This document shows positions 15,776 to 23,287 of a stretch of 64,000 nt of DNA, piece after piece (positions within the stretch are counted from its first letter, which is position 1; each line of letters starts with the position of its first letter). The position numbers were made by a program, and so were the translations under genes. Source of the stretch: Acidimicrobiales bacterium (GTDB lineage: Bacteria > Actinomycetota > Acidimicrobiia > Acidimicrobiales > JAUJNH01); contig JAUJNH010000004.1 in NCBI GenBank assembly GCA_030448245.1, forward strand, positions 186,001-250,000, written 5' to 3'. The notes beneath the pieces were generated by a model. That model was not told where the DNA came from. It saw only the letters and a program-made list of their open reading frames with translations, and made no database searches.

Positions 15776-16377
15776 TCAATCGGCGGCGGCGCCCCTGCGT
15801 GCGAACGGCGTGGCCACGACCGTGCTGGCCGGCAGCGTGATGCTGGCGCCGGCCTTGAAGCCGTTGCGGGCGTAGAAGGGGTGGTTCCTCGGGTTGGTGG
15901 ATTCGAGGTGGATCACCTGAGGACCGACGTTGCTGGCGGCAAGTGCTTCCAGGAGCCGGGCACCGAGCCCCTGTCGCTCGTGGCCTGGTCGGGTGGCCAC
16001 CACGTGCACGTACACGTAGGGCTGCTCCGGTCGAAGCCCGGCGAAGGCGGCCAAGGCTTGCATCACCTCCGGCAGGCGCTCCGGCGGGACGAGCTGTCGG
16101 ATCACCTCACGAACGGGTGGCTGCCCAGACACGTCAGGGAGCTGCTCAGCCGAGGTGCGCCACAGCAGGCAGGCGTGGCCGCGATCGGTGAGATCAGGGC
16201 GCGGCCGGCGGCGAGGTAGCCGGCGACGATCCGGCCCCACCAGCGACCCGTGTCCTCGAGACGGGTGGCAGCGTCGGGCAGCAGCCACACCATCAACGGG
16301 TCGGCCTCGAACGCCTGGGCGACCAAGGTGCTGACCTCGTGGAGGTCTGCAGGCGTGCCCGGCCGAACCTGGATCAC
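15776..16377 (-). pseudogene. GNAT family N-acetyltransferase, split by a frameshift
   Basis: N-terminal half in one frame (VIQVRPGTPADLHEVSTLVAQAFEADPLMVWLLPDAATR...GYLAAGRAL), C-terminal half in another (RGHACLLWRT...YVYVHVVATRPGHERQGLGARLLEALAAS...FYARNGFKAG). Switch around 16190-16202. Confidence 0.75.
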
Positions 16378-20501: not shown

Positions 20502-20566
20502 GCCATGCCTCCGAGGTCGCCGGGTTGGTCCATCCTGCAACGGGGGTGGGAGGCTCGGAGTTCCAG

Positions 20567-21430
20567 ATGATCTCCCTCGACGTCGCCACCGTCCTCCTGC
20601 AGTGGGCCACCGGGGGCCTGCTCTTCCTGTGGGTCACCACCCGCAGGCGGACGGTGGGGATCGGCTACGGCTGGCTGCTGCGGGCCACCTACGGGGTGAT
20701 GGCGGCCGGCGCCCTGTGGGCCGGCCGGGCGCTGGACCCGGTGGCCGTCCGGGATGCCGCCTCGGCCGGGGTCGTCGTTGCCGCCGCGGTGGCGCTGGTC
20801 GTGTCCGTGGTCCGGCGCCGGGCCGGCGTGGCCGGGGTCCGGGAGGCCGAAGCCCGGCGCCGGGCCCGGGTGGAGGTCACGGTGGCCACCGGCGCGGGGC
20901 CTCTGCCCCACAGGGCCGAGGCCGACCTCGGCCCTGAGTTCCCGCCAGCCCTCGACCTGGTGGCGCCGGTCCTGGGGGCCGTCGGCCTGGTCGCCGCGGC
21001 TGTGGCGGCCGACGGGCCGGTCGGCCTGGCCCTCGTGCGCACGCTCGTCGGCGCGGCCTTCCTCGGGTCGGTGAGCGACGCGATGCTGCTGGGCCACTGG
21101 TACCTGGTGCAGCCCGGTCTCGGCCGCGGGCCCATCAACGAGCTGAACCGCTGGCTGCAGGTCTTGTGGCCCTTCGAGGTGGGGGCGTTGCTGCTGCCCA
21201 CCGGCATGCTGTCGGTGCTCTCCGGGTCGATCGACGACGGCTACGGGGGGATCCTGGGGTGGTTCTGGGTGGCGTGCGCCGTCACCACCATCGGCCTGTC
21301 CGTCGTCACCACGGCGGCGCTGCGGGAGCGGGCGTACTCGGCGGTCATGGCCGCCACCGGCCTGCTCTACCTGGCCATCCTCACCGCCTTTGGCACCGAC
21401 CTGGTGGCCCGCCTCGTCCTGTCCGGCTGA
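20567..21430 (+). CDS. Multi-pass membrane protein of unknown function
   Basis: Several hydrophobic segments; SDAMLLGHWYLVQPGL; no family recognised with certainty. Confidence 0.7.
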   Translation: MISLDVATVLLQWATGGLLFLWVTTRRRTVGIGYGWLLRATYGVMAAGALWAGRALDPVAVRDAASAGVVVAAAVALVVSVVRRRAGVAGVREAEARRRARVEVTVATGAGPLPHRAEADLGPEFPPALDLVAPVLGAVGLVAAAVAADGPVGLALVRTLVGAAFLGSVSDAMLLGHWYLVQPGLGRGPINELNRWLQVLWPFEVGALLLPTGMLSVLSGSIDDGYGGILGWFWVACAVTTIGLSVVTTAALRERAYSAVMAATGLLYLAILTAFGTDLVARLVLSG

Positions 21431-21649
21431 TCCGGCCCGACCGGTATCACGGCGACGCCCGGCGACTCTGCTGGGGCAGGGCCTGGCGCCCGGGCCGGAG
21501 GTGGGTGCTGGATGAGGGTGATCGAGGGTCAGCCGTCGAGGGCCAGTCCGACGCGCCCCGTCGAACGTGGCCGCCACGACTGCGGCCCGCCGAAGTGGGG
21601 CGCCACGATTCGTGTGCGGCCAGCCGCGACCTCTCTACGCTCGGGGCGG

Positions 21650-22465
21650 ATGGATGACCCGTCGGTGAGAGATCTGCTCCAGGGCGCCGCCGGAGGCGAC
21701 GAGGCGTCCTGGACGGCGCTCGTCGACCGGTTCGCCAGCCTCGTGGGTCGGTGGCATCAGCTTCAAGCTCGACCGGGGGCCGGTCGAGGACGTCAGCCAG
21801 ACGGTGTGGCTGCGGCTGGCCGAGCACTGTGGGCGCATCCAGGAGCCCGAGCGCCTGCCCGGCTGGCTGGCGACCACCGCCCGCAACGAGGCGCTGCGGG
21901 TCGTGCGATGCCGCCAGCCGGTCGAGCCCCAGGACCGGGCGTGGGACCAGGTCCGAGTCGCCGGTCGAGGACCCGCTGCTCGGGACCGAGACGCTGCACG
22001 AGCTGCTGCAGGCGTTCAACGGCCTCGACGGCGAAAGCCAGCAGCTCCTCCGTCTGCTGTGCGTGGTGCCGCCGCTCGACTACCGCACCATCTCGGAGAT
22101 CACAGGGCGGCCGGTCGCTGACGATGGCCGACGGCGAGCTGACGGTCTACGACCTGGAGGGGTGCCCGGGGGTGGCCCAGACGATCGTCCTGTCGGCCTG
22201 CTCCACCGGCCTCGACACGGTCGTGACGGGGACCGAGGCGCTGGGGCTGAGCGCGGCGCTGCTCTCGCTGGGCTGCGGCACCGTCGTCGCCCCGACGGCG
22301 CCGGTCTCGGACCGAGCCACCGCACCGCTGATGGTGGCGCTGCACCACGGCCTCCGCCGGGGCGAGCGGCCGTCGGTGGCCTTGCACGGCGCCAGGCCCG
22401 ACCCCGGCGACGGGCCGGAGATCCGGGCCAGCTGGACGGCGCTAGCCGCGTTCGGCGCCGGCTGA
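21650..22465 (+). pseudogene. Collapsed ECF sigma factor / CHAT-domain locus
   Basis: Sigma segments in three frames: MDDPSVRDLLQGAAGGDEASWTALVDRFASLV; SFKLDRGPVEDVSQTVWLRLAEHCGRIQEPERLPGWLATTARNEALRVVR; HELLQAFNGLDGESQQLLRLLCVVPPLDYRTISEITGRPV. Then CHAT C-terminus ADGELTVYDLEGCPGVAQTIVLSACSTGLDTVVTGTEALGLSAALLSLGCGTVVAPTAPVSDRATAPLMVALHHGL. Confidence 0.8.
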
Positions 22466-22474
22466 CGCCTCTCG

Positions 22475-23287
22475 CTACCGACGGGCCGGGTTCCCCCAGG
22501 CGTCGACCAGCACGGCCCCCGGCTTGGGTTCGCAGCGCTCGGCGGCCTCGTCGGCGCTGAGCGGCCGGATGCCCGTCGGGCTCAGGTCCCACACCCGCAC
22601 GGTGGCCGGCGACCAGCGGGTCCCGGGCTCGACGAGAACGGCGTTGCCGTCGATGGCCAGGCCCTCCATGACCGCCGCGTGGATGTGGTCCAGCGTCGGC
22701 GACGAGTGCTCGCAGCAGGAACCGTCCAGGTGCCAGTGCGCCGCCGCGCTCCACGTCGGGACGGCCACGTCGAGCTCACCCCCGAACGCAGAACGGTCGG
22801 CCACGCCCTGGAGGAACGCCGCCGCCGCCGCCCACACCGACGCGACCCCCTGCTCGTTGTGCCGGGTCTCGTCGGTCAGGATGCTCCGCAGGGCCCACGA
22901 GCGGATCTCCTCCAGCTCGACCAGCGGGGCGATGGGACCGCACTCGTAGTGGGTGTAGGTCACCGACATCAGGCCCGATCGCTGGGTCCAGCGGCTCAGG
23001 GCGTCGGCCGCACCGGGCTTCACCCCTGCCTCGTCGCACCACACCAGGAACAGCGGGGCCCACACGGGGACGAGGTCGACGCGGGCGCCCGCCTCGGCCA
23101 GGGAACGACCACCCTCTTCGACCGCCGCCACGTGGTCCTCGATGGTGGGCGCCATGAAGGGTGACACGGCCTGGAGCAGATGGAGATCGGCCTCACCCGC
23201 GACGAAGGGCACCACCACCGGGTCTTCGGTCAGGTCGTCGCGCCCGTCTCCCACGGGGTACCTGTTCCCACGACGCTGCGCGGCCAA
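22475..23287 (-). CDS. Hypothetical protein (270 aa)
   Basis: Long ORF with strand-consistent codon bias; no motif recognised. Confidence 0.65.
   Translation of the reverse strand: MAAQRRGNRYPVGDGRDDLTEDPVVVPFVAGEADLHLLQAVSPFMAPTIEDHVAAVEEGGRSLAEAGARVDLVPVWAPLFLVWCDEAGVKPGAADALSRWTQRSGLMSVTYTHYECGPIAPLVELEEIRSWALRSILTDETRHNEQGVASVWAAAAAFLQGVADRSAFGGELDVAVPTWSAAAHWHLDGSCCEHSSPTLDHIHAAVMEGLAIDGNAVLVEPGTRWSPATVRVWDLSPTGIRPLSADEAAERCEPKPGAVLVDAWGNPARR

Follow-up and report, generated by a model that had tools for sequence, protein, structure and literature searches.

A likely remnant of an ECF54-type sigma factor and CHAT protease module next to metH in an Acidimicrobiales genome

ECF sigma factors of the ECF54 group are encoded beside carboxypeptidase-, subtilase- and CHAT-domain proteins, according to a passage in PMC8999054 that cites Huang 2015 and Casas-Pastor 2021. 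In Craspase, a further system in which an ECF-like sigma factor is linked to a protease, the TPR-CHAT protease Csx29 cleaves Csx30, the inhibitor of the sigma factor CASP-sigma, and thereby controls transcription (PMC10028731). The window, that is the whole analysed stretch of 64,000 nucleotides from an Acidimicrobiales bacterium, contains pieces of an ECF sigma gene that run directly into the end of a CHAT gene (Table 1). We propose that this locus is, with good probability, a second ECF54-type module that has lost its function and been reduced to a remnant by a deletion of about 3-4 kb.

The initial annotation described ECF sigma segments in three successive frames followed by a C-terminal part of a CHAT domain, and both profile matches and codon usage agree with this description. 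Because Pfam alone missed the sigma pieces of the window, a profile was built from 15 sigma factors of related modules, with the window left out of the build, and searched against 6,762 peptides, obtained by translating the window and about 420 kb of this genome in all six frames. It matched three frames of the window in the correct order and over nearly its full length (profile 2-168). Region 2 (profile 2-99) is present and is split over two frames, and its core piece is 66-69% identical to the sigma factors of loci L074 and L073. Codon usage scores +0.51 for the first sigma piece in frame A, +0.70 for the second in frame B and +0.78 for the third in frame C, and the favoured frame runs A, B, C, A, with the changes falling where the homology also changes frame. 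A Viterbi path on codon usage changes frame near 21744, 21952 and 22100, and close to these points the upstream frame contains no stop. Homology and codon usage, which are independent of each other, thus agree on the break points, and the assignment of the sigma and CHAT pieces to successive frames is correct and not due to chance.

Table 1 Features of the window locus and of the intact paralogous module (locus L008) in the same genome
Feature	Position	Strand	Remarks
ECF sigma N-terminal piece, start of region 2	window 21650-21748	+	frame A; profile 2-34, E=9e-5
ECF sigma region 2 core piece	window 21756-21959	+	frame B; profile 38-99, E=5e-23
ECF sigma linker and region 4 piece	window 21958-22119	+	frame C; profile 103-168, E=3e-12
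Sigma-to-CHAT junction	window 22113-22124	+	alignments on both sides, no unaligned DNA between them
CHAT C-terminal part, Cys kept, His gone	window 22124-22465	+	frame A; PF12770 and alignment with 21 relatives
ECF sigma	L008:5762-6370		intact region 2, PF04542
Small protein	L008:6367-6855		no Pfam match
S8 subtilase	L008:6862-8295	opposite to sigma	
TPR-CHAT protein	L008, up to 10912		
Ser/Thr kinase gene	L008, behind TPR-CHAT		

The sigma alignment stops at ITGRPV, just before GSIGPTR, the most conserved motif of region 4, and a complete region 4 (helix-turn-helix) was not found in the window sigma. On the other side of the junction, at 22124-22462, PF12770 is matched at profile positions 173-285 (E=1.3e-17) or 174-287 (E=5e-18) of 289, with 64.6 bits versus a Pfam cut-off of 24. 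The CHAT part had been annotated as a half domain with the catalytic Cys; the Cys motif TIVLSACSTG is indeed kept, but the piece amounts to the last third of the domain. Its homology begins a few residues past the catalytic His motif AHGxFRxDNPLFS, and the His-Cys dyad is incomplete in that the His-bearing part is absent. Alignment with relatives bears out the earlier statement that this part and the intervening DNA are missing: of the 20 relatives whose sequence reaches the column of the catalytic His, 19 keep it and L077 has Asp at this place, while L078 is truncated there by a contig end. In the alignment with 21 relatives, the CHAT piece keeps conserved residues. In a tree it is placed with L076 with 76% support, the piece being too short for a firm placing.

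The end of the sigma gene, the TPR domain and the N-terminal part of CHAT are absent from the window locus, and a search for the lost TPR/CHAT part elsewhere in the assembly returned the paralog as the only match. Neither an S8 nor a small-protein match was found at the locus, where the CHAT fragment is all that remains of the module's partners. In collinear modules the two junction points are about 2.9 kb (L091) and 4.3 kb (L008) apart, distances that make a loss of about 3-4 kb likely. Since a single-base error cannot make such a junction, a deletion or a misjoin is needed, and the junction is probably a real deletion. The deletion would have joined sigma region 4 straight to the last third of CHAT, and it would have taken the TPR sensor, the catalytic His and the last part of the DNA-binding region of sigma; a small partner protein or subtilase, if lying between, would have been lost in the same event. 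Judged from its sequence, the remnant most likely does nothing: with region 4 incomplete no promoter recognition is to be expected, and with the His absent no CHAT protease.

An intact paralogous module is found on contig C21 of the same genome (locus L008). Its small protein is a candidate carboxypeptidase-regulatory-like protein, a reading suggested by how its C-terminal half looks and by the description of ECF54. Relatives of the window CHAT piece occur in 40 of 397 genomes of the order, this genome included, and most of the 20 such loci that were read closely have a TPR-CHAT gene beside a sigma gene, an S8 gene and/or a small-protein gene, in varying order and orientation. The intact paralog, the relatives within the order and the passage on ECF54 in PMC8999054 together support the earlier suggestion of a recurrent parental module of ECF sigma and CHAT/TPR genes. 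Thus, the parent of the remnant is identifiable by comparison, and its arrangement is one already known. In the intact module, a signal would be sensed via the TPR domain and/or the subtilase; proteolysis by the TPR-CHAT cysteine protease and/or the subtilase would then release or activate the ECF sigma factor, which would switch on its target genes. A sequence search of the PDB with the TPR-CHAT protein of the paralog gave no match. Matches in a defence-system library were partial and confined to the subtilase domain and the core of CHAT; they do not serve here as evidence for a defence role.

In the sigma tree, the window groups with L074 and L079 with 99% support. The gene order in both of these loci is CHAT before sigma, opposite to that in the window, which counts against a simple deletion. 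As the closest sigma relatives are CHAT-first, a simple deletion needs a sigma-first parent such as L008 or L091; the parent either was sigma-first like these two or was rearranged before the loss.

The initial annotation suggested looking for an intact sigma/CHAT locus between the membrane-protein gene and metH in relatives, and none of the 20 relatives inspected has one at this position. In 17 of these 20, metH lies 0-12 kb downstream of the membrane-protein gene with the relative orientation unchanged. The length of the interval varies, and sigma and CHAT are absent from all 17 intervals. Against order-level relatives, the module copy of the window looks lineage-specific. Across the order, 195 of 298 genomes conserve the membrane-protein gene itself (window 20525-21430, upstream of the remnant); its product has no match in Pfam or NCBIfam and represents an unnamed conserved family that is usually encoded near metH. 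Between the remnant and metH lies a coding-looking gene of 270 aa (window 22475-23287), which gave no match in Pfam or NCBIfam and no tblastn match in the loci of 40 relatives.

The frame shifts within the sigma gene were taken initially as decay, which does not necessarily follow, the assembly being rich in frame breaks without stops. In a sample of 20 stretches of 20 kb, 47 such breaks were counted in 378 kb of coding sequence, compared with 12 in 489 kb of the relatives' loci, an about five-fold excess that is only approximate because the samples are unmatched (spread stretches for this assembly, module and metH neighbourhoods for the relatives) and because the detector was trained on the codon usage of this genome. 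The recA gene of the same genome (L008:12546-13600, on C21) appears frame-broken near L008:13430; its open frame of 276 aa corresponds to positions 68-262 of the RecA profile only, and its N-terminus sits in another frame. A living bacterium should carry an intact recA, so the break in this gene probably stems from base-level indel errors, which may lie behind the sigma frame shifts of the window as well. The two breaks within sigma are thus either later decay or sequencing errors. In codon usage, all four pieces fall at the 19th-53rd percentile of intact-gene stretches of equal length, and they contain no internal stop, so that a recent event or sequencing errors fit better than long decay; any decay of the pieces is indicated to be recent.

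Further breaks were seen in the same assembly. The gene for the large subunit of glutamate synthase (L133:1500-5600; C21:265001-285000) is spread, without stops, across several frames, profile positions 4-108 and 153-368 falling in different frames. An aconitase-like gene that follows it has its start in another frame, and L133:7683-7782 is a run of N. The cinA gene, named by eye from its sequence, is frame-broken. A histidine-kinase/response-regulator region (L117:4000-9000; C4:200001-220000) shows five frame breaks without stops, and identical sequence flanks the N at position 4456 of L117 on both sides, which resembles an assembly join. On its minus strand, the window has one more weak frame switch without a stop, at 15801-16345.

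As the assembly is incomplete (completeness 92.8%) and error-prone, the junction could also be a misassembly. The organism would then possess an intact second module, of which the assembly lost several kb and miscalled bases. Frame breaks in the housekeeping genes recA, glutamate synthase and cinA, the N runs in scaffolds together with the repeat flanking an N in L117, and the normal codon usage of sigma and CHAT pieces free of stops would all be in line with such an artefact. However, a loss of several kb with a clean junction is unlike the single-base errors elsewhere, the window contains no N, an orphan TPR-CHAT half was not found in the assembly, and the genes around the remnant are intact, including metH with 1158 aa. 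We therefore regard an assembly artefact as unlikely, and a remnant of a deleted second module copy as the better explanation.

One frame also stays open across the sigma and CHAT pieces, which the initial annotation read as a chimeric protein. Frame A is free of stops over 271 aa at 21650-22465 (317 aa from 21512, the start set by the ORF tool), but this openness is not meaningful: 31% of intact genes of this GC-rich genome stay stop-free when read with an equivalent series of frame shifts. A frame of 271 aa is unremarkable, as chance often gives such frames in GC-rich DNA. That it encodes a real, expressed and selected chimera, for instance a regulator made of the sigma N-terminus and the CHAT fragment, would agree with the open frame and with the conserved residues kept in the CHAT piece. 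We consider it very improbable, since the shifted middle of frame A is strongly non-coding in codon usage (-0.65 to -0.70 per codon), the openness itself is expected by chance at the frequency given, and no sigma-70-type promoter-like site was found upstream. The scan of the locus for sigma-70-type promoters and terminators, which returned neither, covers promoters of the sigma-70 type only, and the TACGCT box at 21636 lies beyond its reach. It is just as improbable that the collapsed locus, as sigma/CHAT chimera or as CHAT fragment, is expressed and has a modulating effect on the cell's intact paralogous module. Least probable of all is that the CHAT fragment alone is made from the in-frame ATG at 22124 as a decoy binding CHAT-dependent complexes: 113 open codons with near-normal codon usage follow this ATG, but it falls within the domain, at the start of the LADG motif, a column with Leu in most relatives and Met in two, and is thus best read as an internal codon, and a stand-alone fragment gene was recognised in none of 49 relatives' matches, the short frames of L077 and L078 lying at contig ends.

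The gene remnant itself is of little importance. It points to an ECF54-like sigma/CHAT/subtilase module that recurs in the order and is freely gained, lost and rearranged. Since even recA looks frame-broken in this assembly, its apparent pseudogenes call for a check against reads. For the putative mechanism of ECF54, proteolytic control of a sigma factor by a caspase-like protease, the intact paralog in the same genome would be the gene set to use.

Compared by gene context alone, the paralog and most of the relatives inspected resemble ECF54, whereas the copy in the window differs in having parts of sigma and CHAT only. The neighbour set of ECF54 (CHAT, subtilase, carboxypeptidase-type) was not found beside the sigma pieces of the window; the paralogous locus has a sigma factor, an S8 subtilase, a TPR-CHAT protein and the small protein. 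Compared with Craspase, neither Cas7-11 nor Csx30 was seen adjoining the paralog, and its TPR-CHAT protein differs from Csx29, scoring 13.1 bits on the curated Csx29 model with a cut-off of 300. What the two systems have in common is the link between a TPR-CHAT protease and an ECF-like sigma factor, and Craspase, the best-studied case, can thus serve as a functional analogy for the intact module.
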